Assembly (NCBI GenBank): GCA_903872345.1
Contig: CAIQKM010000190.1
Location: 1-64,000, forward strand
Origin: an uncultured Verrucomicrobia subdivision 3 bacterium
Lineage (GTDB): Bacteria; Verrucomicrobiota; Verrucomicrobiia; Limisphaerales; UBA11358
Direction: 5' to 3'
DNA length: 64,000 bases
Every line of letters starts with the position of its first letter. Within the stretch, counting starts at the first letter, position 1. The notes below the pieces were generated by a model. The model saw nothing but the letters and a program-made list of their open reading frames with translations, did no database searches and had not been told where the DNA came from. The translations under genes and the position numbers were made by a program. Positions 49,406 through 64,000 of this stretch are shown piece after piece.

Positions 49406-50191
49406 TCATTTCAACCACGCATTAACGCGCAGCTTCTTCCTGAGCTTGCCGTTGTCGGCGCACATGCCATAGCGAAACTTCCCGGGCGCCGGCACCGAGT
49501 AAAACTCGCCCCCGGCATTTTCCACCAGCAGGCTGCCCGCCGCCACGTCCCACAAATTGATGCGCCGCTCCACATACGCGTCAAACCGGCCGCTGGCCAC
49601 ATAGGCCAGTTCCAGCGCGGCGGACCCCATGATGCGCACCTTGCGCGCCTGGCGCAGCAGCCGGTTCACGTGCGGCAGACTCGCCCGCAGGCTGCTCTTG
49701 CTCTTGGAAAATCCGGCGGCTATCACCGAATCGGCCACCCGGTCACAGTTGCTCACGCGCACAATTTTCCCGTTCAACCGCGTCGGCGCGCCTTCCATGG
49801 TGCTCCACAATTCATCCGTAAAAGGATCGTAAATGACGCCCACCACCGATTGCTCCCGAAATTGCAGGGCAATGGAAACCGCCGCGTGCGGCACACCCGA
49901 GGCATAGTTCACCGTGCCGTCAATCGGATCCACCACCCAGCGGTATTCGGCGGTGACATCGCCCGTGATCCCCTCCTCGCCCAGCACCGGAATTTCCGGG
50001 AAAGCCGCCGCCAGCGTTTTTTCGATCAGCGCCTGGCAGCGCACGTCCAGTTCCAGCTTGATGTCATGCTGCTCGGCATGGTTCACTTTTTTAACCTTAT
50101 ACCAATTGTCATGCATCACCTGGCCGGCCGCCCTCGCGGCCTTTACGGCTGCGGCAAGCGCCTCTACGAGACGGATTTTATTCATTTGCAA
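49406..50191 (-). CDS. Inositol monophosphatase family protein
   Basis: A 261-residue (or 259 from the second Met) metal-dependent phosphatase. The three metal-site motifs are present: GEEG at 71-74, DPIDGT at 88-93 and WDVAAG at 213-218. This family includes SuhB, inositol-1-phosphatase, CysQ and histidinol-phosphatase-like enzymes; the motifs do not separate them. It dephosphorylates inositol phosphate or a related sugar phosphate in the cytoplasm. It is the last core gene before the 450-bp structured gap and is not obviously in an operon. Confidence 0.9.
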   Translation of the reverse strand: MQMNKIRLVEALAAAVKAARAAGQVMHDNWYKVKKVNHAEQHDIKLELDVRCQALIEKTLAAAFPEIPVLGEEGITGDVTAEYRWVVDPIDGTVNYASGVPHAAVSIALQFREQSVVGVIYDPFTDELWSTMEGAPTRLNGKIVRVSNCDRVADSVIAAGFSKSKSSLRASLPHVNRLLRQARKVRIMGSAALELAYVASGRFDAYVERRINLWDVAAGSLLVENAGGEFYSVPAPGKFRYGMCADNGKLRKKLRVNAWLK

Positions 50192-50643
50192 TATCCTTTT
50201 CTTTTCAAATTGGTTTTTACGACCACCCTGCCCTCTCCCCCGGGAGAGAGTTTACACCTGAAACACTTCAATTCATTCGCCTCCCAGTCCTACCACCCCA
50301 GCAGCCCTCTTCTCCAAAACGCGGCAACCGATTCCCCCTCTCCCCGGAAGCCATCCGAGGTGAGAATCCCAAAGGGATTCCGGCCCAAAGCCCAGGGTTG
50401 CGAGGAACGAGCTACCCTTGGTACTCGCCCCCCAACCATTTTCAACCGCAACGCGGTTACGGCCCCTTCAGGTCACCCCCACCAATCTAGCACCTCACAT
50501 TTTCAAAAACACTGGAACCAATTCCCCCTCTCCCGGGGGAGAATATACTGATGGATATGACTACATTCTTGCTTGGTATATGACTGGTTGTTTTGTTTAT
50601 GGTTATTGGATGAAATCACAGAGGGTGATTATTAAAAAGGTCT
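50192..50643. other. Structured non-coding gap at the core/accessory junction
   Basis: No gene is credible here. CCCTCTCCCCCGGGAGAG occurs near 50230 and CCCCTCTCCCGGGGGAGA near 50526, both palindromic, and another CCCCCTCTCCCC at about 50334. Between them are a perfect hairpin GAATCCC-AAA-GGGATTC (50364-50380) and an ACCGC/GCGGT pair near 50447-50459. It looks like a cluster of REP-type palindromes. It marks the change from core genes to the right accessory region. Confidence 0.45.
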
Positions 50644-51261
50644 TCACGCATAGAAGAACCCCAATTCGCGCAAGGAACTGTAATCCTTGGGGTTTTCAGC
50701 CGTGCGCAAACCGATGATGACATGGTCCAGAACGTCAATTTTCAAGAGCTGCCCGGCGCGAATAATATCCCTTGTCACCTTGCAGTCCGCGTCGGACGGG
50801 CTGGAATTTCCTGACGGGTGATTATGAACTAAACATATACTGTGCGCATTGTATACGATAGCCGGACGAAAGATTTCACGGGCATGGATGTGCAGGGTGT
50901 CGATCGTGCCCTGGCTGATTTTTACCGCCTTAATCAGGCGGCGGCGGACATTCATTAAAACCACGTAAAACGTCTCCACGGTCTGCACCCGCATTTCTTC
51001 CCGGAGGAGATTGGCGATGTGTTCGGGAGCGTCCAGCAAGGGGGCTTCGGGCAATGCCTCTAGGGATAATTCAGCGGCCAGGACCAGGGCGGATTTGACG
51101 GCGGCGGCGGTGGATGCGCCAACGCCGGGCAAGTCGGTAAGCTCCTGCTCATCGGCGCGGGCGATTGCGGTTAGGCTGCCATATCGTTCCATCAAGGCAT
51201 GAGCTTGGGAATCGCCAGCAATTTTTGCAATTAGATTTTGGTGTGAAAGATTATAATTCAT
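50644..51261 (-). CDS. radC: RadC-family JAB-domain protein
   Basis: A 205-residue protein from the ATG at MNYNLSHQNL; a longer reading overlaps the neighbour. It has the HhH hairpin LPGVGAS (44-50) and the JAMM/MPN+ metal site HNHPSG (146-151) followed by S-x-x-D (SPSDAD). RadC proteins (UPF0758) are often carried on mobile elements and resemble anti-restriction or DNA-processing factors; the repair role is doubtful. Its presence as first gene of the right accessory region fits this. A small membrane protein gene lies 25 bp upstream. Confidence 0.88.
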   Translation of the reverse strand: MNYNLSHQNLIAKIAGDSQAHALMERYGSLTAIARADEQELTDLPGVGASTAAAVKSALVLAAELSLEALPEAPLLDAPEHIANLLREEMRVQTVETFYVVLMNVRRRLIKAVKISQGTIDTLHIHAREIFRPAIVYNAHSICLVHNHPSGNSSPSDADCKVTRDIIRAGQLLKIDVLDHVIIGLRTAENPKDYSSLRELGFFYA

Positions 51262-51286
51262 AGTGCCTGGCTGGTTGGATTTTCGC

Positions 51287-51550
51287 TCAGTTGGAGTGCG
51301 AAGCGCGGGAGCGACGGGGATTTTTGCGGGCGCGTTTCGTGGTGGCAACGGTCGCCGGGGCGGTGGCGGTCACGGTGGATTCTCCGTGATTAGCCCAGCA
51401 AACCAAGAGCAGTGTGGCACTCAGCAAGGCCAGACCCGTGCCGAACATTTTCAAAAGGTGGCCTTCGGAATCGACCAGTTTGAGGCCGATAACGATGGTT
51501 TCGGTGGTGATGGTGGAGGTTATTTTCGCGCCGATAATCTTTTTAATCAT
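51287..51550 (-). CDS. Small single-span membrane protein, unknown
   Basis: An 87-residue protein with an N-terminal amphipathic/hydrophobic beta-like half (IIGAKITSTITTETIVIGL), one clear membrane segment (about 35-52, MFGTGLALLSATLLLVCW) and a basic C-terminal tail (KRARKNPRRSR). It precedes radC with a 25-bp gap on the same strand. I do not recognise it. It is likely an inner-membrane protein with a cytoplasmic basic tail. Confidence 0.55.
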   Translation of the reverse strand: MIKKIIGAKITSTITTETIVIGLKLVDSEGHLLKMFGTGLALLSATLLLVCWANHGESTVTATAPATVATTKRARKNPRRSRASHSN

Positions 51551-51710
51551 ACTCGAAACAGTTCTTCCCCGGAGTGGGGCCTACGCGATGAAATCGCGGC
51601 CGGGCAGACGTTTCCCTTGCGCCGGTGGTTGGTTACCGGCGATGGTTTTAATTGCCGCCGCGCTTCGCACTGCCGTATCAGTCGGCCAGCGTTCGGTAGG
51701 GCACCTTATT

Positions 51711-53027
51711 TCAGGCACCCGCCTGCTGTATTATCATGAAGTCGGTGAGCCAGCGGCTGACGAACGTTGCTTCGTCGTTTGATTTCCGGGCCGCTGCGCC
51801 GCCATTTATTTTGGCGAACCGGTTCCGTTCCTGGCGAATGTTTGCGGGCAACAAGTCGCCGTCGGTATCGCAAATGAACGCGGGCGGGGAAATATTGCGG
51901 AAGAATATTGCGGCCTGATCCGTGCTGAGTATCAAACCCGTTACGGGCATCGCACGCTGCAATAAATCAATCAGAAAAGTCCAGTTTCCGGCTTGCGTCG
52001 TGGCCACGAAAGCACTGGCGTCAAGGTCGCGGATTCTGGCGCCGGCATTGATCAACTTCCCGGCGAAGCGAAGCTTCTGCGATTTGACGGCTCGTTTTAG
52101 CGCGTCGCTATTGTCGGCTGCAGGGTCCGCGCCGTGTTCAATGAGGAAATCCAAAATGGTTTCCCCCGCCTTGTCCGCTGCAACCTGCAATTGCAGGTCT
52201 CTGGCGCGTTGTGGAATCGTTGAATGTAGATGGGCATATTGAAGCACGCGCAGTGCATTATGGCGCACCGCATGCATGGCTATGTCAGCGGCGTAGGCGT
52301 GAAATTCATACCCACGCCGGATTAAAATCAACAGACATTCGACTGAATCACGGGCTGTAATATCGGTGACAAGGTAGGGGTGTTGTAACGTGCCGCCAGC
52401 GTCGAGCAACGTTTCCAGCATTTCAGAATCGCCCAAAACCAGCGCAGATGTGATGGCCATATGGGCGTGGGCATTAACTTGCGCCCCGCATTCAAGAATA
52501 TATCTGGCGACGTCAACATGGCCTTCACTGATGGCATTGCCGAGAATCTTGCCGTCCCTCGCATCGAAATCCGCACCCAAGCGGCGTAGGATTTGAAGAA
52601 TTTGAACGCTGCCGGCGGCGGCGGCCAGCCGGGCGGAATGATTCTCGTCGGCATTAGGGCTGGCTCCTGCGGCAATCAGAACCGCAACGGCATGGTGGCT
52701 GCGGGCTTGGATTGCGGTATATAACACCGGATTTAAAACCGACTGGGGGAGGGTGGTTTTGACTGCCCGAAGCAGAATTTTGAGGCTCTGGGCGTTTCGA
52801 TTTTTCGCGGCCAGGTTAAGAAATTCTTCTGTGTTTTCAACGAAATCCGCCCCGGCTTTTATTAGCAACTTGACGACTGCGGCATGTCCATGCCGAAGAG
52901 CACGCCGGAGCGCGGCATTGTCACTTTCCTCGGGATCGGCTCCGGCTTTCAACAGATTGCGCACGGCCTTGGCGTCACCACGCGCTGCGGCATCGCGTAG
53001 CCCTCTATCGGCATCTAATATAATCAT
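51711..53027 (-). CDS. Ankyrin-repeat protein
   Basis: The ATG at MIILDADRGL gives 438 residues. Residues 5-390 are ankyrin repeats; clear ones read LRDAAARGDAKAVRNLLKAGADPE, ALRHGHAAVVKLLIKAGADF, AIQARSHHAVAVLIAAGASPN, AISEGHVDVARYILECGAQVN, ALVLGDSEMLETLLDAGG and FLIEHGADPAADN, in pieces. It has no signal peptide, so it is probably a cytoplasmic protein-binding scaffold. The last 60 residues (after 375) are not repeat-like. It lies between radC and the relaxase; a link to either is unproven. Confidence 0.82.
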   Translation of the reverse strand: MIILDADRGLRDAAARGDAKAVRNLLKAGADPEESDNAALRRALRHGHAAVVKLLIKAGADFVENTEEFLNLAAKNRNAQSLKILLRAVKTTLPQSVLNPVLYTAIQARSHHAVAVLIAAGASPNADENHSARLAAAAGSVQILQILRRLGADFDARDGKILGNAISEGHVDVARYILECGAQVNAHAHMAITSALVLGDSEMLETLLDAGGTLQHPYLVTDITARDSVECLLILIRRGYEFHAYAADIAMHAVRHNALRVLQYAHLHSTIPQRARDLQLQVAADKAGETILDFLIEHGADPAADNSDALKRAVKSQKLRFAGKLINAGARIRDLDASAFVATTQAGNWTFLIDLLQRAMPVTGLILSTDQAAIFFRNISPPAFICDTDGDLLPANIRQERNRFAKINGGAAARKSNDEATFVSRWLTDFMIIQQAGA

Positions 53028-53174
53028 GCCCGAAGTGCTTGTCCGCGCTGCCGGGGAACTGGGCATGAAATGCACCGATTTCGTGCGCTCGCCCGCGCTT
53101 ACCCGATGAACGAACGCAAGGCCAACCACCTCAAAAGCCCCATTCAGGCCTTGGCAGAAAACTCAACTATAACC

Positions 53175-55682
53175 CTAATATTGCTTATTCTGATTACGTG
53201 CAATCGCCTCCTGAATTTTCAACGGCATGAGCTTGGTCCAAGCCAGCTCCGGCGTGGTTTGCGTTAAATAATCGTCGGCACTTTCCATCGTAACCCACTT
53301 TAAAAACTTACCGTCCGCGCCATACAACATCGGTGCTTTTTCGGCGAGGGCGTTATTTCTCAAAGATATATTGGTGGCCAACACGAACTGCTTCCCGAGC
53401 TTTTTGAGGCGTTCAAACAGTGGCGGATTGGGAAATTCGGCGTCAAGACTGATGATCATCGGAAATTTAGGAGGGGGTTCCTGGGGGGCCAATCTGATTT
53501 TTTCCTTGCGATCAAGCCGGGCGATTTCGTAATAGGCGATTGCTTCCAGAGGGTTGGCCACGCCGACAATGGTCTCCACATTAGCCAGCCCATTATCCAG
53601 GCGAAGCACACCGCCTTTCGCTGGGACGAGTATACGGGGCATTAAAACCGGCGCATCAATATCCAAAAGGGTCACCCCGCGAAGGGTTTTTGTTTCGCTT
53701 TCGTCATTCAAATCGACCCGCCCCACCGCCAATGTTGAATCAGAAACGTGCCAAAGTATGCCGCGTTCCTTGAAGCTATTGAGTGTTTTTTCAGCAAATT
53801 TATAGTTTGAAACCAGCTTGCCGCGCAACTTGTCCCAGACATTGGAAGCCGGTGTCCAGATGTGCGGAATATCATCAAGGGTCAGCGCACGCGGTTGCAG
53901 GTCTTTGATGGCGGCAACCTCAGCTTTCGTTTGCTCGGAAACCTCCCCGGCGACATCAGCCTCAATGACTGCGGGCAAAACCCGTGGTATTAAATACTCA
54001 ACCGCGTCTTTGAAATTCCAATTAGTGAGACTCTTGACGAGGTCAATCGCCCCCGTTCCCTTGCACTGGGAATTCTTGGCATCCTCAAACTTCCGACCCG
54101 TGATTTGGAGGGAATTCTTCTCGCTGGTGAAGGTAAAAACACCATCCTTTTCAACGGGTTCCAATGCCAAAATATCCTTGGCGATGGGCACCAAATCCAG
54201 TCCGCGCACCAGCGCGGCATGCTGTTTAAGTACAGCATCAGCCCGCTGAGTGACGATTTGAACCTCTTTTTTAACCTTGGAAACGGTGTCGCTGGCCTCC
54301 TTTTGGGCCTCGATAACGGTGGTGGTAGCGGCCGTTTTAACCGCTTCCGCCTCCGCTTTGGCCTGGGCAACTATGGCATCAGTCGCCTTTTTAGCCTCAA
54401 ATATCGAATCTTCGGCCCGTTGGGCAACGATTTTGGCCTCCATAGTTTTCTCAGCGACGATCTTATCGGAGGCCAGTCTTGCAACGGCCACGATGTCGTC
54501 GGTCGCCTCATTCTGCGCAACAACAACGATGCGTTCCCGTTCGTCGCGCCGCGCAAGAAGAACCTCCTCGGCCATGCCTGCCATCTCCACCAGCTTGGAT
54601 TGAGCTGCGCCCATGGTCTGTTTAATGCCAGCGATGATTTCCTCGCGATTCACCTGCCATGCCGCCGAATCCATGGCTTGCAACCGGTCAAGCTGGGCTT
54701 GGAGACTGGATTTGACCGTTTCAACGTCCTTTTTGACGGATATCCGGTGCTCATAAAGCTCTTGTTGGGGAATGTATTGGCGCTTACTGCCCCTGAGACC
54801 GCGATTAAGGCCGAACGACTTCATCGCCTGCCAGTAATGATCTTGCAACTCGCGCATGGCCTTTCGGTCCCCCAAAACATCCTTACAATTTAAACGATTT
54901 TCATGGTCCATCGGCAAGATCACCGCATGCAAATGGGGGGTGGTTTCGTCACCATTGGCGGCTCCGGCGATGACATTTTCCGCGCCATACCGCGCGCGGA
55001 GCCAAGTCAGATTGGCGGCTTTCCATTCCACGATTTTTGCGGGAGTCAAGTTGGCATCGTGGGACACGGCCATTAAAACCTCCACCGCGAGAACCGCATT
55101 ATCGCGGGGTTTTACCAGCGCGTTTAGCGCCCCGGGAAAAGCATCTTCCAGCAACAATCGGTTTAGCATTTGGACCGCTTCCCCCTGGGGATTTGAATTC
55201 AAAAGTTGCCTGGTTACGTCGCGCAACCGGACCTTTTTAAAGCGTTTCCGCTCATAAATGGACGGGCCCAAAACCACTGCTTTTAGCTGTTCAACCAGCT
55301 CATTCCTGACCGGTTCCAGCGGGGTGACGGACCGCTTATAGCTGCCCAAAATAGCCCGTGTGGACTCAGGCAAAAGGGATTTAATGTGGGCGGCAACGGG
55401 GTTTTTGCGGTTGTTTAAGGTCGAAACCAGCAACGGCAGATTGCGGATTTCAGCCGCTAAAATGTCTGGGGACGGGCGGCCGGCCATCCGCTGGTGCCAG
55501 CGAACGATGGCGGCGGCCGGACCGTAGGCATCGGGGAAAATTCGCTCGTTAAGGTGCTGCCGGTCGGCATGCACGTTGGCGGGAAGTTTCTTCCCGACGC
55601 GTTCGCAGTGGTTAACGCGGCGTGCAAGCGACCTCCAATCTTTTACCCGCTGCACCTTCAATATGGCGAATTTCTTTGACAT
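53175..55682 (-). CDS. MobV-type relaxase fused to coiled coil and primase/Toprim-like tail
   Basis: An 835-residue protein. The N-terminus (ILKVQRVKDW) and residues 193-300 match MobV/Pre relaxases: AVLAVEVLMAVSHD, then motif III NGDETTPHLH (243-252) with metal-binding His250 and His252, then LPMDHENRLNCKDVLGDR. About 110 extra residues (about 60-190) split the usual motif I and II spacing. Residues 310-490 form a long Ala/Glu/Lys coiled coil. The tail resembles DUF3991/Toprim relaxase-associated domains: a cluster like a primase zinc-finger fold (515-565, no Cys set), then 600-835 with SLDAEFPNPP. The Toprim acidic motif looks degenerate. It would nick oriT for conjugative mobilization; a candidate oriT lies upstream. 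Confidence 0.85.
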   Translation of the reverse strand: MSKKFAILKVQRVKDWRSLARRVNHCERVGKKLPANVHADRQHLNERIFPDAYGPAAAIVRWHQRMAGRPSPDILAAEIRNLPLLVSTLNNRKNPVAAHIKSLLPESTRAILGSYKRSVTPLEPVRNELVEQLKAVVLGPSIYERKRFKKVRLRDVTRQLLNSNPQGEAVQMLNRLLLEDAFPGALNALVKPRDNAVLAVEVLMAVSHDANLTPAKIVEWKAANLTWLRARYGAENVIAGAANGDETTPHLHAVILPMDHENRLNCKDVLGDRKAMRELQDHYWQAMKSFGLNRGLRGSKRQYIPQQELYEHRISVKKDVETVKSSLQAQLDRLQAMDSAAWQVNREEIIAGIKQTMGAAQSKLVEMAGMAEEVLLARRDERERIVVVAQNEATDDIVAVARLASDKIVAEKTMEAKIVAQRAEDSIFEAKKATDAIVAQAKAEAEAVKTAATTTVIEAQKEASDTVSKVKKEVQIVTQRADAVLKQHAALVRGLDLVPIAKDILALEPVEKDGVFTFTSEKNSLQITGRKFEDAKNSQCKGTGAIDLVKSLTNWNFKDAVEYLIPRVLPAVIEADVAGEVSEQTKAEVAAIKDLQPRALTLDDIPHIWTPASNVWDKLRGKLVSNYKFAEKTLNSFKERGILWHVSDSTLAVGRVDLNDESETKTLRGVTLLDIDAPVLMPRILVPAKGGVLRLDNGLANVETIVGVANPLEAIAYYEIARLDRKEKIRLAPQEPPPKFPMIISLDAEFPNPPLFERLKKLGKQFVLATNISLRNNALAEKAPMLYGADGKFLKWVTMESADDYLTQTTPELAWTKLMPLKIQEAIARNQNKQY

Positions 55683-55753
55683 AACATAAAATGGGCAAAT
55701 GCATCATTTGTCCCGCTGGCCGTTCTCTTGACGGCCCACAGGCCGGGGAATGC

Positions 55754-55778
55754 AAAGGGGGTGGCCCAAACCCCCTTT
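55754..55778. repeat. Hairpin upstream of the relaxase gene
   Basis: A perfect 8-bp stem, AAAGGGGG (55754-55761) and CCCCCTTT (55771-55778), loop 9 nt. It lies in the leader of the relaxase gene, next to the candidate oriT, and may be part of that structure or a leader attenuator. Confidence 0.5.
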
Positions 55779-55786
55779 CGCCACAT

Positions 55787-55850
55787 TAGACAATTCAAGA
55801 AAGTCGGCAGACGTCCAGCAGAGCTGGTTCTTGAATTGTCTAGTGTGTTC
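55787..55850 (+). other. Candidate oriT with MobV nick core
   Basis: A perfect 15-bp inverted repeat (55787-55801 and 55828-55842) with a nested CCAGC-AGA-GCTGG hairpin in its loop (55815-55827) ends in TA, the first two bases of TAGTGTGTTC (55841-55850). The well-studied pMV158 MobM nick site is TAGTGTG/TTA, so the cut would fall between 55847 and 55848. The relaxase gene begins 105 bp to the left, reading away, so the transferred 5' end leads right and the relaxase gene enters last. Position, structure and core all match a MobV oriT. Confidence 0.72.
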
Positions 55851-55922
55851 CCCATGCTGAATTAAGATGGAACGATTCCTACGGTTGTCAAGGGGTGAAA
55901 ATGAGGTGTCCGAAAAAATCGC

Positions 55923-55952
55923 GCACGGATATGGGCACACCCATACCCGTGC
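55923..55952. repeat. Long hairpin beside the candidate oriT
   Basis: A 13-bp stem with one A/C mismatch and a CACA loop: GCACGGATATGGG (55923-55935) and CCCATACCCGTGC (55940-55952). It lies 70 bp from the proposed nick. It could be an accessory oriT hairpin or a terminator. Bases 55953-56417 hold no other recognised feature. Confidence 0.5.
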
Positions 55953-56417
55953 GTGACAGAACTACAAAAACACAAAAAGCGCCTGGTCAACGAATGACTT
56001 GGCAGCACGAGCTTTGTCCTTACACACTACGGCTGACGTGATTAGCCAGGGGGTATACTTGGTGCGGATGGGTGGAGAAGATAGCTATATAGGGCCTTCT
56101 AATTGCAGGGAAATGCGAATTTAGCCCGCTAATCACCTTTCCACGGGTTTTTGTCAGATATGACCGGGGATGTCAGTTTATGCGGTATGGTTGGCTCACA
56201 ACTTCCGGAAACTCAATTAAGGGTGGTCGTTCTGGTGGATATGGTTTCGGGTAGATCGGGTCGTAGCTTCCGGGGGGGAGGGTGTGAGAAAGCCGGGAAG
56301 TTCACTTTTGCCGTTGTGCCCGGCTTGGGTTGAGAGTTGGTGGAGTGCCGGTTTGTTCGCGGTGGTGGTAGCTGAGTACGAACAGTGGTTAGCCGGTGTC
56401 CACAGTCATGGGCAAAA

Positions 56418-56447
56418 TAAAAAAGGCCGGGTAGTGCTTACCCGGCC
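56418..56447 (-). terminator. Rho-independent terminator for the Lys/Ala-rich gene
   Basis: On the minus strand GGCCGGGTA (56439-56447) and TACCCGGCC (56425-56433) form a perfect 9-bp stem with a 5-nt loop, followed by seven T residues (A-run at 56418-56424 on the plus strand). It ends the transcript of the gene whose stop codon lies about 30 bp before. Confidence 0.9.
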
Positions 56448-56478
56448 CGATTTTGTGCCAGAATCTCTGGCGGGATGT

Positions 56479-56790
56479 TTACTTCTTGGCCTTAACCGCG
56501 GTGCTGTCTGCCGATGTTGCGTCTGGCTGCTCAGTGACCACAGCTGTTGCTGTTGCCACCTGGGCTTTCGACGCATCAGCTTTGCCTTGCTCCGTTTCGG
56601 TTGCCGCCGGTTCTTGGGTATCGCCGGCTGCCTTCGATTTGGCTTTCGACTTTTCCAAACGGTGGAAGGCCGATTTGATCAGTTGGCTGGTCAGTGCCAT
56701 TTTATGCAAGACCTCAACCTCATCAACGAGTTCATCGGTCGCCAGGTATCCTGCCTTTCTTATTGCTGTCTTTATTTCTGACTTTGTCAT
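56479..56790 (-). CDS. Small Lys/Ala/Thr-rich protein, unknown
   Basis: A 103-residue protein starting MTKSEIKTAIRKAGY. Residues 1-50 look helical, with alternating charged and hydrophobic residues, and could bind DNA or protein (AIRKAGYLATDELVDEVEVL). The second half (51-103) is low-complexity Ala/Lys/Thr/Glu, disordered in character, ending VKAKK. It has a strong terminator of its own. It lies between the candidate oriT and the repeat protein gene in the right accessory region. An accessory mobilization (DNA-binding) protein is possible by position and basic tail, but no family is recognised. Confidence 0.55.
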   Translation of the reverse strand: MTKSEIKTAIRKAGYLATDELVDEVEVLHKMALTSQLIKSAFHRLEKSKAKSKAAGDTQEPAATETEQGKADASKAQVATATAVVTEQPDATSADSTAVKAKK

Positions 56791-57264
56791 TTTATGTGTC
56801 TTTCACTGTGACTGGCGTGTTTTGGCCAGGTCGATTATCTCGAACTGTGTGAACCAAAACACCTATTCAATCAACCTCATGATATCAGTAGTTCCCGTGC
56901 CGCTAAAATTTTGGCAACTTTTCCGGGAAAGGCTGGCCCTTGGCATTAGTCTTGCTTTATTGAGATCCAAGCCGAATCAGCCTATGGGGACGTTGAGTGG
57001 ATGGATTAACTGACGAGGGGGCTTGGGCTGGCTTTAGTCAGGCTAATTACTTCTTTATGGCTGCTGCGTCAGGGGCGAATTCCCACGAGCCTTTCAGCTG
57101 TTTTCATGGCTTCCTGTTCCAGCGGTCCGTGTGGGTAGCTTGGGTTCAGACATTGGCTAAAATACCTTGTCCCTTGGCCCAAAGCCAAAAATGAGGTTTG
57201 CCACCAACAGTGTGCTGGCCGCATCAGGGGCAGGCCATACTGCCCGTCGGTAGGCTGATCCGCA
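56791..57264. other. Non-coding gap, nothing recognised
   Basis: A 474-bp gap between two minus-strand genes. Short readings on both strands lack any family resemblance or clear ribosome-binding site. The promoter of the Lys/Ala-rich gene should lie at its left end. Confidence 0.4.
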
Positions 57265-58443
57265 TCACAACAAATAAGCAACAAGGTGTTTATATTGACC
57301 AATTTGCTCGCGCAGTTCGTTCGTCAGATTGGGACTGGCCAGGAGCCACTGAATAAAATTTAGGTGGTCGCCATTGTGTGCTGGTTGCAGGTCATTACAT
57401 AGGTCCGGGCAGGCTATGATGTTTTTAAGGCAATAACCTTGGGAGTACGGTACTGAAAACAGATTCACAGCTACGTCCCATGGAGTGGGTCCATTTGGGG
57501 TGTGTACCTGCAATTCTTTGGCGGATGTACCCGGCAGAAGCTTCCCCCCCACGGCGGCAAAATGAAGGGGGGCAGCATAATTTTTAAAGGCTAACTCTTT
57601 GATAAAGTTGTCGTCAGTTATTTTCAGCTGTTTCACCTTGGACAGGTCGGCAGTGGAAGTTCCCGGGGGCAATACTCCAAAGTTCGCTGCCAGGTTCAGG
57701 TAGTCGCCAAATCTGGCGTTGGGCACTTCGGCCAGTGCTTGGGCTGTGGTGTCAGCCGGATAAGTGAATGTGTCTTTCGTTATCTGCTTGAAAAGCCAGC
57801 GCACACAGTCCTCGCAATCTTTGCCTTCGAACACAAGTAGATCCGAAAAAGTGGTGCCTTTCGGGAAATGACCTTTGCTGGCGGCAAGGTGCAATGCGCT
57901 GTGAGCTCCAATGATATGGACATAATACTCCTTCATCCTCGGCTCATGCCATGTAGTAATCAGGTGCTGCACCGTCATGTCTGGGGGGAATATGCCGGTT
58001 TCTGCCGCCTCCCAGACTTCATCCTCCGTAAATTTGCCGAGCTTTAAGGCTCTTTGCTGCGCCGCTTGCTGCCTTGCCTCCTGTTCGCGGTGATAACTGA
58101 TCAAGGCATTTTCCCACTCTTCATCTATTTCTTTCTCGCTCTCCGCATCGGATCCCCATCTTACCGAGGCTGTCTTGACCGGTAATTCCAGAACTGCGCG
58201 CCGCCATAGCGGAAAATGCCCCCCATCTGGCAGGGCAATCACGCTCCATTCGATTTGACCGGGGAGCTGTAGAACATATATCAGGCCGTACTGCCCGTAG
58301 CCGCCATGCTTGGCTTTTTGAGCGGCCAAGACCAAGGCGTGGGTCACGTCGGCGTGTTTCCCCACGAGGATGCCGTGGATTTTGCCCAATTTACTAGTGC
58401 TGGTTGGCAGTTGTCCTGTCTGCTTCATTGCTGTCTTTGTCAT
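57265..58443 (-). CDS. Unknown protein with ankyrin-like PPGT repeats
   Basis: A 392-residue protein without signal peptide. The N-terminal part (20-130) has a beta-rich stretch (GLIYVLQLPGQIEWSVIALPDGG) and a Gln/Glu/Arg helix. After that a repeat with the pattern L-x-x-A-A-x-x-G-x-x-P-P-G-T-T/S-x-x-D-L appears four times, at about 142-161, 182-202, 246-267 and 289-311. The core LHLAASKG / LHFAAVGG is ankyrin-like, but the PPGT extension is not usual. It has a GGAAG ribosome-binding sequence and starts 16 bp after the S8 peptidase stop, so both are one operon. Probably a protein-binding partner of that peptidase or unrelated cargo; no family named. Confidence 0.65.
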   Translation of the reverse strand: MTKTAMKQTGQLPTSTSKLGKIHGILVGKHADVTHALVLAAQKAKHGGYGQYGLIYVLQLPGQIEWSVIALPDGGHFPLWRRAVLELPVKTASVRWGSDAESEKEIDEEWENALISYHREQEARQQAAQQRALKLGKFTEDEVWEAAETGIFPPDMTVQHLITTWHEPRMKEYYVHIIGAHSALHLAASKGHFPKGTTFSDLLVFEGKDCEDCVRWLFKQITKDTFTYPADTTAQALAEVPNARFGDYLNLAANFGVLPPGTSTADLSKVKQLKITDDNFIKELAFKNYAAPLHFAAVGGKLLPGTSAKELQVHTPNGPTPWDVAVNLFSVPYSQGYCLKNIIACPDLCNDLQPAHNGDHLNFIQWLLASPNLTNELREQIGQYKHLVAYLL

Positions 58444-58459
58444 GTTATGTTATCTTCCA

Positions 58460-61393
58460 CTACTTCTTTAGCCGGAAAAACTCGACCGGGGTGTTAACGC
58501 GATTAGTAACGGTGTATTGTCCGTTCAGGACGGTTGGGACGGTCGAGTTGGTGAACCAGGTGCCTGAATTTAGGTTGGTGGAGTATTGGACCACGTATCC
58601 TGAGAGGTTGGTAGGCCAAATCAAGATGGCGCTGTTGTTGGCCGCACTTATTTTCAGGGTCGGGGCATTGATTGTTGTTGCCGCCACGTTCACCGTCCAG
58701 TAGTAAATCCCGTTGTTGCCCTCATTGCACTCGGCGATTTCATTTTCATCGTCGATTTTGAAACCCAGATAATATTTTCCGGGGATGGTGTTGGGGCTGA
58801 TTGTAATGGTCGGGCTGAGCGTGATGATGCCGTTTGCCGGACAGCCTGTGACCGGCACCTCACCCAGCAGGGTGGCTCCGGTAAAATTTAAATTGGTGGT
58901 CCAATAGATTCCAACGTGAAATGAACTGGCGTTGGTGCTGCCGCCTGTGCACGGTTCATTCGTAATGGTGATGGACGGGCTGATCGTGGCACTCAGGACC
59001 GGATTGGTGTTGTTCAAGTTGCTGGTGAATAATGTCAGGTCTGGTTGTGGTGGTGGCAAGACATTGATCGTCCAGTAAAAGATGCCCTTGTCACTGGTGT
59101 TGCATTCGACGGTTTCGGTCTCATCATCAATCCGGTAACCCAAATAATATGTGCCCGGCGTTGTTCCGTTGCTGATCAGAACATTTTGCGTGACGGGCAC
59201 TGTGCTATTGGCGTTGCAACCTGAGACGGCCGTTTCGTAGAAGGCGGTTGATCCGGTAAAGCTTGGGTTGGAGGAAAAATAAAACCCGACGTGGAACGCA
59301 CCGACGTTGTTTCCGGCCAGTCCGCAGAATTTGTTGGTGAGGACGATGGACACTGTGACGGTATCGCCAGTGTGTGGGGAGGTATTATTTAGACTGTCGG
59401 TGAACCTGGTGATGTCTGGTTCCACTGCTCCTAATGCGATGAGGGGCATGACGATTCCATTTCCAGAATCCCGGTCCCAGCCTGCTGTCATGATGTCCAG
59501 GGTGCTGTTGGTCAGGACGGTGCGGATTTGAGCGGGGGAAAGATTGGGGTTGTAAGATTTGAGCAGGGCGGCGATGGCTGCTGCATGTGGTGCGGCGGCG
59601 GAGGTCCCAAAGAATGGGGCATAACCGGGAACATCGGTGGTGACTCCGTTGGCTGCGGTTAAATCGGGTTTCTCCCGGACTGTGCCGCCCGTGGACGAAT
59701 AATTACCGGGGGTGATGGGGGTTCCGTCAGCTTGGAAAAATACCCGACGCGGTCCATCTGAACTAAAATCTTCGACGGATTTACTGGTGCCTCCCGTAAA
59801 GGCATTGGGATATGGTCCGTATGGGTCTGGGCTTCCTCCGTAGGGTTTATAGGCATTGATGGCTGCCACATCAAAGGCGTTTGTGGCACAGTCGTGCCCC
59901 CGTGTGCTGCCTTGTGTGCTGATGCCCAGTTTGCCTCTGCCGGTGGAAAGGTGCAAAAACCGTGATGACCCGGAATACAGAACCACGATAATGTACTCCC
60001 CGTTGGTCATTGATCCAACTGACTCATACGGGTTTTGGCTGCCGTTCTGGGGATTGGTGGATGAGGCGTTAACGTTTTGGCCCGTTCCATCCAGTACGTA
60101 GAGGTCGTAATCGTTTGCGGATGCCACGAGTGGATCACTCCAAAACAAATCCGCTTCGAGTTGATTGCCCCCGGGTCCTGTACCGGTTATTTGGTCGTAA
60201 TTGGCCGAGCCAAAACTGTGAATTGCTCCGTTTCGTCCGTTGGTGATTACGCCGCTGGATATTCCGCTGTTCACGAAATCCCCTTCCCAAGTGCCACTGG
60301 TGCCGGCGTCTTTGTTGCCGGCATTGGAGGCAGAGGAAAAAAACAGGACCCCGTTCGCGGTTACTGAATTTACAGCTTGTGCGATTATGCCATCTTGGAA
60401 CGGAGGTTCATCATTATAGAGCATGTCATCGACAATGATATTGCAACCGGCATTTTGCAGTTGGAGGATGTTGTTGGCAAAAGCCGCGTCTCCGCCTTCT
60501 CCCGTGGCAAAATACAATTGTGCTCCGGGGGCGAGATCGTGGACGATTTCCAGCATGGCGGTGCCTTCGCCTTCCCCCCCGTTGTTCACATTGCCCTGTC
60601 CGTTGAGCACGTTGACTTGACCGGCGATTTGCGAATTGGTGAGATAATCCACGCTATCGGACATCACCCCGACTTTGAGACCTGAACCGTTCGCGGAAAA
60701 GGTGGATCGAGCTGTGATGGCTTGATGGGTGTAATCGCCTTCACTGTCCACGCCGTTATTGAAAGCACGAACAGCCGGTTGAACGAATTGCACGTCGTTT
60801 CGCGCTGTCAGCGTTTCCATTTGTGCGAGTGGGATGCTGGCCCGGATGGATTTGTATTGGGGAAAATCGTTGATCACCTGGCCGCCTTGATCCGCGATGA
60901 AATTCAGGAGGGCATCGGTCACGGTGGCGGTGATGTCCACCAGCACCCGGTTTTGTGAATCGGTTTGCAGATTCACTCTTTGGGTGGGGACTCCCGTTGC
61001 CACCGGTAGCCCTCGCTGCATCTTGTCCGCGTATAGTAATTGGGAATCAATTTTCAGTTGGGCCGGGGTGCGGTTGGCCTTTTCATCTTCCAGGGCGGAA
61101 ATTTGCTTTAATACTTGCGGGCTCAATTGGTCGAACACCACGTTTTGGCTGAGGTTGGTGCCCGTTCCTGAAAGGCGCTTTACCAGGACGGGTTGGTTTG
61201 GCAAATGTGCATTTGGAGGGGTCTGGTTTAACTGCTGTTTCGCGGGTTGGGTGGGATTTGATCGGCCAACCGCACTAGGAATTCGATTTGATTCGCTTGC
61301 CCCGTGTTCCCGTCGCAAAATGATTGTGAACAGGATGGCTAAAACCATGAGTCCCAGAAAAAGCTTTTTAAGCTTCGTTGGTTGCATGTTCAT
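58460..61393 (-). CDS. Large secreted S8-family peptidase with CARDB-like modules
   Basis: A 977-residue protein with an N-terminal membrane anchor/signal (about 9-26). The protease domain shows Asp246 in VGVMSDSVD, the His position replaced by Glu276 in GEGEGTAMLEIVHDLAPGA, a conserved SSASNAGN stretch, and Ser598 in FGTSAAAPHAA. A propeptide-like region (80-210) precedes it. Two CARDB-like beta domains follow (about 655-775 and 780-890), each with SLNNT/NLNNT, a Cys pair and YYLGYRIDDE-type strands. The C-terminal module ends FFRLKK. It is expected to be secreted or surface-bound. It lies upstream of the PPGT-repeat gene in one operon. Whether Glu can serve in the triad is unknown. Confidence 0.84.
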   Translation of the reverse strand: MNMQPTKLKKLFLGLMVLAILFTIILRREHGASESNRIPSAVGRSNPTQPAKQQLNQTPPNAHLPNQPVLVKRLSGTGTNLSQNVVFDQLSPQVLKQISALEDEKANRTPAQLKIDSQLLYADKMQRGLPVATGVPTQRVNLQTDSQNRVLVDITATVTDALLNFIADQGGQVINDFPQYKSIRASIPLAQMETLTARNDVQFVQPAVRAFNNGVDSEGDYTHQAITARSTFSANGSGLKVGVMSDSVDYLTNSQIAGQVNVLNGQGNVNNGGEGEGTAMLEIVHDLAPGAQLYFATGEGGDAAFANNILQLQNAGCNIIVDDMLYNDEPPFQDGIIAQAVNSVTANGVLFFSSASNAGNKDAGTSGTWEGDFVNSGISSGVITNGRNGAIHSFGSANYDQITGTGPGGNQLEADLFWSDPLVASANDYDLYVLDGTGQNVNASSTNPQNGSQNPYESVGSMTNGEYIIVVLYSGSSRFLHLSTGRGKLGISTQGSTRGHDCATNAFDVAAINAYKPYGGSPDPYGPYPNAFTGGTSKSVEDFSSDGPRRVFFQADGTPITPGNYSSTGGTVREKPDLTAANGVTTDVPGYAPFFGTSAAAPHAAAIAALLKSYNPNLSPAQIRTVLTNSTLDIMTAGWDRDSGNGIVMPLIALGAVEPDITRFTDSLNNTSPHTGDTVTVSIVLTNKFCGLAGNNVGAFHVGFYFSSNPSFTGSTAFYETAVSGCNANSTVPVTQNVLISNGTTPGTYYLGYRIDDETETVECNTSDKGIFYWTINVLPPPQPDLTLFTSNLNNTNPVLSATISPSITITNEPCTGGSTNASSFHVGIYWTTNLNFTGATLLGEVPVTGCPANGIITLSPTITISPNTIPGKYYLGFKIDDENEIAECNEGNNGIYYWTVNVAATTINAPTLKISAANNSAILIWPTNLSGYVVQYSTNLNSGTWFTNSTVPTVLNGQYTVTNRVNTPVEFFRLKK

Positions 61394-62087: not shown

Positions 62088-64000
62088 TCATGCTTCCACC
62101 CACCCAATTAATTTGGTTTCAAAACCGCTGTTCCCAGAAACCAAGCCCCGGTGTTCAAGTTCGCGGTGTAACATGGGTTCAAGGTTTTCATGGAGCAATG
62201 CGAGCATCCTGTCTGAATTCGGTTTTGGCAGGGAGGACGGTGATGTGCCCCATAATTTTTCTGGATGGCGTTCCCAGGCGAGGAGCCGTTTACCTTCGGT
62301 GTCCACGGCCAGCACTTGAATAATTCTTTTAATTTGGCCTTTCTCGCCACGGGCTTCAACCATCCATGCCGCAAGTACGCCGGTATTGCCGTCGGGTGAT
62401 TGAACGTGGACGCCGATTTCTTCCGGGGACAGGTCACGGAATTTCCTCAGGTATGCCGCCACAATCGGATGGTCGAGGCCGAGCAACTGGACTTTTTCCT
62501 TCTGCAACGACAATTCCCGTTCGGTGGTCAGGAGCGTTTCCGTTTTGGTCTGGCCGTCAATCCATGCGAATTGTTTTTCTCCTCGACTGGTGAAGGTGTC
62601 AGCCTCGGCGCTGGCGGCGTCGGTGACGAATCGCACCAATGCGCCCATTCCTTCTTCGGGGCTGCCCATCGCCTTGTAGTCGTCCAACCGGAAGCCATCG
62701 AGGTCTTGAAACAGCTCGAACACCACCTTGCGCGCCTCGACCGCGTTGGACATGGCGGCGTCCAATTCAACCTTGGTGCGTTTGAGCAATGGGTCGTTTA
62801 AGGCGTCGGCGTATAGGCTGGCGTAATTTAACTGCATCGAAAGCTGACCGAGAATTTGTGTGCGTAGGTCTTCGGCAATTTGACCGCGTTCGTCCACTTT
62901 ACCGAGCGCACGGCCAATCTCTTTTAATTTATCGTCGAGCAACAGGAAAATTGAGCCTTCAATCGTGTCCGACAGGACGAGGTTGTAAACTTGCGCGGTA
63001 TTGAGTTGGCCGTAGCGGTGGATGCGCCCGATACGCTGCTCCAAGTCCATTGGATTCCATGGCAGGTCAAAATTGAATAGCACGCGGGCGTGTTGAAGAT
63101 TAATCCCCTCCCGCCCAGCTGCTGTGCAAATCAAGACGCGCGGCCCGTCTGGTGCTTTGAATCGCTTTTCCGCTGCCGTCTTTGCGCCGTGGTCTCCGCC
63201 TTTGAGCACGGTCACGCCTTGACCGGGATACTGCTTCTCGATTTCCGCACCGAGCATTTCCACGCTGCCGAGATACGTCGCAAAAATCACCATGCGCTCC
63301 TGTGGATTCTGCCGCCATAGCACGCCGAGTGCGCCGATGAGCTTTTCCACCTTGGTTTCGCGCTGCGCCGGGTATGTGGCGAGTAGTTCCTTGATCCGTC
63401 GCCGTTCCTCCGGCAACGCTACCGCGACACTGCTGATGGCGGCGTCCTCGGCATCCGCCGCGCCTGTTTCCGAACTGAATTCATCTGCGCCTGTGCCGAG
63501 AGCGTCTTCTTCCTCGCGCTGTAATTTCAAGATTTTATAGCGGTAGTCGGCCAGCAATTGGTCCACCTGTGCATTTTCCAAACGTCCCTCGGCGATGCCG
63601 TGCAATTCGCGAATTAACTTTCGCGCTTCATCAAGCGCGGCGTTGCGCTGGTCAATGTCCAGCTTTTGATCGTGCATCAGTGATTCTTGAATCGTGAGTG
63701 CGATGAGGCGGCGGCGTAATGTGCGTTGGACGGCGGCGAAACTGGACGCGGCGATTTTCTGGAAGATGGTCATTACGAACGCCAATCCTTGACCGCGTTT
63801 GCCCTGCCGTTTCGCCAGCGCGAATCCGTCCTGTAAATATGCCACCAGTGCGCCGTAAAAACCTTTCTCGGTTTCGGCCATCGTGAATGCCTCCGTATGG
63901 ACCTGCCGCCGGGCGAACAGGGTTGAGCCATCCGGTTTGCAGGCGTCGGCTTTTGTCCGTCGAAAAACGACGGCGTTGAGGCGGTGGCGGTGCTCCACCA
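62088..64000 (-). CDS. SNF2-type helicase, C-terminal part (runs off the right edge)
   Basis: The reading frame continues beyond the window, so the N-terminal half (Walker A/B) is missing here; the first Met-like codon at 63998 is an internal GTG. The visible 636 residues hold the second RecA-like domain with motif V REGINLQ (296-302) and motif VI QRIGRIHRYGQ (321-331), which are typical of SNF2/RapA-like ATPases, then a long alpha-helical C-terminal region. DISARM-type DrmD and other phage-defence SNF2 proteins share this plan, but the window shows no DrmA/B/C. It is followed by the possible nuclease gene. Confidence 0.85.
   Translation of the reverse strand, partial: VEHRHRLNAVVFRRTKADACKPDGSTLFARRQVHTEAFTMAETEKGFYGALVAYLQDGFALAKRQGKRGQGLAFVMTIFQKIAASSFAAVQRTLRRRLIALTIQESLMHDQKLDIDQRNAALDEARKLIRELHGIAEGRLENAQVDQLLADYRYKILKLQREEEDALGTGADEFSSETGAADAEDAAISSVAVALPEERRRIKELLATYPAQRETKVEKLIGALGVLWRQNPQERMVIFATYLGSVEMLGAEIEKQYPGQGVTVLKGGDHGAKTAAEKRFKAPDGPRVLICTAAGREGINLQHARVLFNFDLPWNPMDLEQRIGRIHRYGQLNTAQVYNLVLSDTIEGSIFLLLDDKLKEIGRALGKVDERGQIAEDLRTQILGQLSMQLNYASLYADALNDPLLKRTKVELDAAMSNAVEARKVVFELFQDLDGFRLDDYKAMGSPEEGMGALVRFVTDAASAEADTFTSRGEKQFAWIDGQTKTETLLTTERELSLQKEKVQLLGLDHPIVAAYLRKFRDLSPEEIGVHVQSPDGNTGVLAAWMVEARGEKGQIKRIIQVLAVDTEGKRLLAWERHPEKLWGTSPSSLPKPNSDRMLALLHENLEPMLHRELEHRGLVSGNSGFETKLIGWVEA

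Follow-up and report, generated by a model that had tools for sequence, protein, structure and literature searches.

A perfect inverted repeat just upstream of an unusual relaxase gene, on a contig of an uncultured Verrucomicrobia subdivision 3 bacterium, raises the question of whether it is an origin of transfer (oriT) and, if so, which strand would be nicked and in which order the genes would leave. Detailed descriptions of MobV transfer origins come mainly from small Firmicutes plasmids. We analysed a stretch of 64,000 nucleotides (the window) and conclude that positions 55782–55877 very probably are the oriT of a MobV-type integrative mobilizable element, for which we propose nicking and transfer of the + strand.

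Hairpin and nick core

The site and its surroundings consist of the following parts:
55782–55801, + strand: oriT hairpin, 5′ arm of 20 nt, perfectly paired over its inner 15 nt
55802–55827, + strand: hairpin loop, 26 nt, with two small nested hairpins inside
55828–55847, + strand: 3′ arm of the oriT hairpin, with TAGTGTG at its end
55841–55849, + strand: nick core TAGTGTG/TT, putative cut at 55847/55848 by analogy with pMV158 and MobSag
55848–55877, + strand: segment 3′ of the nick, 30 nt, identical in G043:C90, a contig from another species of the genus
55919–55956, − strand: second hairpin, with a terminator-like part at 55922–55953 and the − strand T-run TTTTTT after it

As the initial annotation had read directly from the sequence, the 15-bp arms TAGACAATTCAAGAA (55787–55801) and TTCTTGAATTGTCTA (55828–55842) pair perfectly around nested hairpins. 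The stem extends to 20 bp (CACATTAGACAATTCAAGAA, 55782–55801, with TTCTTGAATTGTCTAGTGTG, 55828–55847) with one G–T pair, and the + strand then continues TTCCCC. The TAGTGTG that had been placed directly after the repeat, with TTC following, belongs to the stem in this longer form: the 3′ arm has TAGTGTG as its last bases and stops at 55847, exactly at the putative nick 55847/55848. The mapped MobM nick is TAGTGTG/TTA (PMC5090054); the match to the pMV158 core, given earlier as eight of eight bases, is nine of nine (TAGTGTGTT). Positions 55841–55849 thus carry the TA[AG]TG[TC]G/TT core of MOBV oriTs, and a hairpin with 20-bp arms lies directly 5′ of the nick, as IR1/IR3 does in such oriTs. When the region was folded as single-stranded DNA, as had been proposed, it reached −22.5 kcal/mol, compared with −7.4 ± 2.0 kcal/mol for shuffled sequences (z = −7.66; none of 200 as stable). 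The 105 bp reported between the repeat and the relaxase ATG (55682) holds when the 15-bp arm is measured from its outer edge; from the nick to this ATG there are 165 bp. Beyond the nick, AATTAAGA (55860–55867) is an 8-of-9 repeat of AATTCAAGA (55792–55800). Rfam returned no match within 50000–58500.

The window contains the core TAGTGTGTT a single time; 0.18 occurrences are expected per window, so the 9-mer alone is not significant, and the significance of the core comes from its placement at the foot of the hairpin. That palindrome and core both arose by chance is extremely unlikely: such a 9-mer appeared at least once in 16 of 100 shuffled windows and could by itself be fortuitous, but the hairpin was unmatched in 200 shuffles, recurs across MobV loci and is conserved in the relative G043:C90.

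The recurrence was assessed in 33 MobV loci by scanning the 450 bp upstream of the gene for hairpins whose 3′ foot carries a core. In 10 of the 33 the stem scored 10 or more and had a core at its foot, compared with 0 or 1 (mean ~0.3) in each of 15 dinucleotide-shuffled sets. Because the window locus is counted among the 10 and the core pattern was widened after the first loci had been inspected, this recurrence is supportive rather than a blind test. The stems of the counterpart loci are unrelated in sequence and identical in plan, with these feet:
L047: GAAAATCTGGTTTAGTGTG/TTATACC
L048: AAAATTCGGTTTAGTGAG/TTATACC
L044: CAAAATCCAAAATTGTGTAGTGCG/TTTCAC
L071: ATAAATTGTGTAATAAG/TTCAC
L049: AAAAAGGTGAAGTAAG/TTCAT

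The same layout at independent MobV relaxases, on unrelated stems, and the MobV relaxase next to the site support the earlier reading as a MobV-type oriT. A scan of genome contigs returned only the near-identical relative L002.

In G043:C90, a block corresponding to 52.7–55.877 kb is ~99% identical to the window, with unrelated flanks beyond, and the 299 bases of 55579–55877 are unchanged. Identity falls abruptly from 100% to ~80% at 55878, 30 nt past the putative nick, and is lost beyond 56000. This drop could mark relaxase-mediated recombination at the oriT; ordinary recombination and selection account for it equally well.

The second hairpin (55919–55956) is kept in G043:C90 with one two-sided compensatory change. 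Since TTTTTT follows it on the − strand, its simplest reading is a terminator, which would most simply shield the oriT and relaxase from upstream transcription. The idea that it acts in the leading region, as a single-strand promoter or for priming, was considered and dropped, as the hairpin scans as a terminator on the − strand and the hairpins downstream in other MobV loci are unlike it.

The oriT hairpin itself lies in the 5′ region of the relaxase gene, and MobM represses its own promoter at oriT (PMC5863519), so the hairpin might be mainly an operator or attenuator of the relaxase operon with no part in nicking. We consider this very unlikely: no promoter-like site was found there, the terminator-like hairpin is the separate one at 55922–55953 on the − strand, and a pure operator does not predict a nick core at the foot of unrelated stems.

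The relaxase and its inserted domain

Two features describe the protein that would act at this oriT:
53175–55682, − strand: MobV relaxase, 835 aa, with an N-terminal MobV domain split by an insert and a C-terminal DUF3991/Toprim-like tail
55119–55469, − strand: inserted domain, relaxase residues ~72–188, found within unrelated proteins of the order too

The relaxase scores 122.6 bits (2e-35) against the NCBIfam MobV model, above the cut-off of 100, and a profile built from this protein together with its relatives finds the crystal structure of the MobM relaxase domain (4lvi) with an E value of 1e-27 and HxxR aligned. Motif I (HxxR) is present as HCER at residues 25–28, in the same column as HNER of MobM, which cleaves via a histidine (PMC5863519). 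Motif II (NYD/EL) is not kept and reads NERI; the tyrosine is also absent from other A2 members. Motif III (HxDExxPHUH) reads NGDETTPHLH, the first histidine being replaced by asparagine (as also in L044) and the rest kept. The MobV profile matches in two pieces (positions 2–79 and 72–186) with ~110 residues between them, which places an insert between motifs II and III. The closest insert-free relative is L044, with 45% identity over compared columns (48% in A2). For the C-terminal part, which has no Pfam match of its own, hhalign gives an alignment at 98.9% with the tail of L043, in which Pfam places DUF3991 and Toprim domains; the protein thus resembles a relaxase that ends in a primase-like tail.

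The departures in motifs II and III and the insert could have altered relaxase activity. They also bear on the possibility that the element is a relic, dead through interruption of its relaxase by the inserted domain, which splits the MobV domain between two motifs that are both off consensus. We regard this as unlikely. Relative to G043:C90, the relaxase gene, insert included, has 18 synonymous and 3 non-synonymous differences (dN/dS 0.05, on small numbers), a pattern consistent with a working protein; the oriT is unchanged over the same period, and the relaxase reading frame is fully open.

The inserted domain comprises ~110–130 residues with the signature LRPETQKLL..NP.G..L..LNRLLLEDAYP.EI. 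Its relatives (the window relaxase, L005–L031 and L077–L106) always lie in frame within other proteins, which we named by eye from their sequences rather than by family search: transporters of several families, including sugar and RND-type transporters, other membrane proteins, a secreted protein, and other relaxases, with MobV relaxases carrying the domain at two different positions. A domain profile search found at least one copy, and a maximum of 14, in 212 of 293 genomes of the order, and copies in 5 of 288 genomes from elsewhere in the phylum. Neither Pfam nor NCBIfam has a family that covers the domain. Non-orthologous copies have low DNA similarity, and no terminal repeats were seen. 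Alignment-free structure prediction for the insert gave a pLDDT of 50, too low to be used, and the search terms used found no paper on such an insert in Verrucomicrobiota. The relaxase insert may be one copy of an undescribed, order-specific coding insertion, possibly mobile, that spread in frame through unrelated genes, where it would either be tolerated or give the host proteins a function in common, for instance their regulation; we are as ready to doubt this reading as to accept it. The question it raises is how one unnamed domain entered so many unrelated proteins of a single order.

Predicted nick strand and comparison with known oriTs

The core lies on the + strand and the relaxase gene on the − strand. 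With the core on the strand opposite the relaxase coding strand, the relaxase gene would enter last. The initial annotation had this geometry right and left unremarked that it is opposite to that of pMV158 and MobSag. Among the loci compared, the core is on the relaxase coding strand in pMV158-like L062, Bacillus velezensis L061, Psychrobacter L059, Aeromonas L067 and L043, and on the non-coding strand in the window, L044, L047, L048, L049, L071, L045 and the cyanobacterial plasmid L060. The orientation of the window is also that of most Verrucomicrobiota counterparts. Placed on a relaxase tree of 16 rows, nick strand needed three changes and did not cluster significantly, 65 of 500 shuffles requiring no more.

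The repeat is nearly symmetric, and the − strand carries a weaker alternative core, TAATGTG/GC. An oriT nicked there, on the relaxase coding strand and with the relaxase gene leaving first as in pMV158, is in our judgement quite unlikely. The coding strand does read TTCTTGAATTGTCTAATGTG/GCG, and both MobM and MobSag have been shown experimentally to nick the coding strand (PMC5090054). However, this foot ends in G/GC, not G/TT, and the opposite foot is likewise degraded in comparable Verrucomicrobiota sites (CAGTGTG/CG, TTGTGAG/CG, CCATGCG/CC, CCATAAG/CC), where one foot keeps TA[AG]T[AG]NG/T.

The canonical IR2 that flanks the nick is absent from the window, in which the best cross-nick pairing has a p value of 0.15 against shuffles; it was detected in L062 (p = 0.005), L061 (p = 0.001), L059 (p = 0.026) and L043 (p = 0.004). 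Since a significant IR2 is also absent from L044 and L071, its absence argues against membership of MOBV1 and not against MobV-type oriTs at large. By core, hairpin and cognate relaxase, the site is thus classed from its sequence as a putative MobV-type oriT that has neither IR2 nor the coding-strand nick, both of which mark the pMV158 subgroup.

Like the window, the oriTs of pMV158 (MobM, MOBV1) and IMESag-rpsI (MobSag) have the core TAG​TG[TC]G/TT upstream of the relaxase gene, and in pMV158 the nick is directly preceded on its 5′ side by a hairpin, the longer form of which (IR3) reaches the nick. The window differs in its predicted nick strand, in its 20-bp stem with a 26-nt structured loop (7–12 bp and a short loop in pMV158/MobSag), in the absence of a canonical IR2, and in the insert and long Toprim-like tail of its relaxase. 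The MobV oriTs of L046, L113 and L116, which we take to come from Bacteroidota/Akkermansia hosts and to be linked to Tn4555/Tn5520, resemble the window in their 17–19-bp stem, 23–26-nt loop, core at the 3′ foot and nick-like foot (TAATAAG) on the non-coding strand. They differ in that the core is TAATAAG/CT and the relaxase is distant, shorter and without a long tail; these sites are near-symmetric, and their strand, not decidable from sequence alone, was assigned from TAATAAG only.

The mobilizable element and its predicted transfer direction

The oriT lies within an element of ~27.6 kb (about 50543–78158 of the contig, which extends to 78300), with these landmarks:
50535–50564, no strand: left element end, GGGGGAGA/ATATAC...GATGGATATGACTAC
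50644–51348, − strand: RadC family protein, conserved neighbour
51711–53129, − strand: ankyrin-repeat protein encoded downstream of the relaxase, a conserved neighbour
62088–63998, − strand: SNF2-type helicase, defence-like cargo
contig 76291–78150 (L037:12291–14150): large serine recombinase
contig 78137–78151: inverted partner of the left end, GTAGTCATTTCCATC

Both ends have GGAGA beside ATATAC/GTATAT and an inverted GATGGA[TA]ATGACTAC (50550–50564 and 78137–78151), and the outer flanks resemble halves of a dispersed repeat (CTCACCCCGGCCCTCTCC...GGGGGAGA). A related module in G043:C92 has the same left end; another, in G043:C88, lies at the same dispersed repeat; and G011:C35 encodes a 65% identical recombinase near a contig end, together with a MobV relaxase. 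To the left of the oriT is the operon of RadC, ankyrin and relaxase genes; to the right are DUF6573, the serine recombinase and a defence-like set of genes made up of the SNF2 helicase, a DUF1156-type methylase, DUF499, TIR and a metallo-hydrolase. No tRNA that might serve as integration site was found in the window, and Pfam revealed no T4SS domain in those element genes that were scanned. With its own recombinase, relaxase, putative oriT and defined ends, and no transfer channel found, the element has the make-up of an integrative mobilizable element. A coupling-protein gene lies on another contig of the same genome; no helper could be tied to the element.

Two further observations concern the surroundings and relatives of the element. 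A 42-bp stretch at the contig end (L037 14259–14300) matches the left flank (50362–50403) at 98%, and this dispersed repeat probably ended the assembly. In L042 (G043:C88, 7367–11645), a VirD2/MobP-type relaxase with a similar tail precedes the same ankyrin–RadC pair; this suggests that a conserved operon can take different relaxase heads.

Tn4451-type integrative mobilizable elements have a large serine recombinase, a MobV relaxase and no transfer channel (PMC5704250). The window element shares with them the recombinase, the relaxase, a short direct repeat at the ends and the lack of T4SS genes, a likeness in make-up; it differs in host phylum, size (~27.6 kb), defence-like cargo, RadC/ankyrin/relaxase operon and dispersed chromosomal repeat target.

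From these features we infer excision, binding, cleavage, strand and transfer. The serine recombinase would excise the element as a circle, and the relaxase would bind the long hairpin on the + strand and nick between G55847 and T55848 through motif I H25, the equivalent of the MobM catalytic histidine, staying attached to the 5′ end at T55848. Another element would supply the coupling protein and the channel through which the nicked strand is exported rightwards, the cargo entering first and RadC, ankyrin and relaxase last. The 20-bp stem reaching up to the nick may serve recognition and end-joining, like IR1/IR3 of pMV158.

An exact predicted nick position is now at hand in a Verrucomicrobiota element. 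In pMV158 the relaxase gene goes first, whereas in most of the Verrucomicrobiota loci that we compared it would go last, which suggests that the MobV family has no fixed direction of transfer with respect to this gene. The putative oriT is also an anchor for a family of islands that carry defence-like cargo and target a dispersed repeat.
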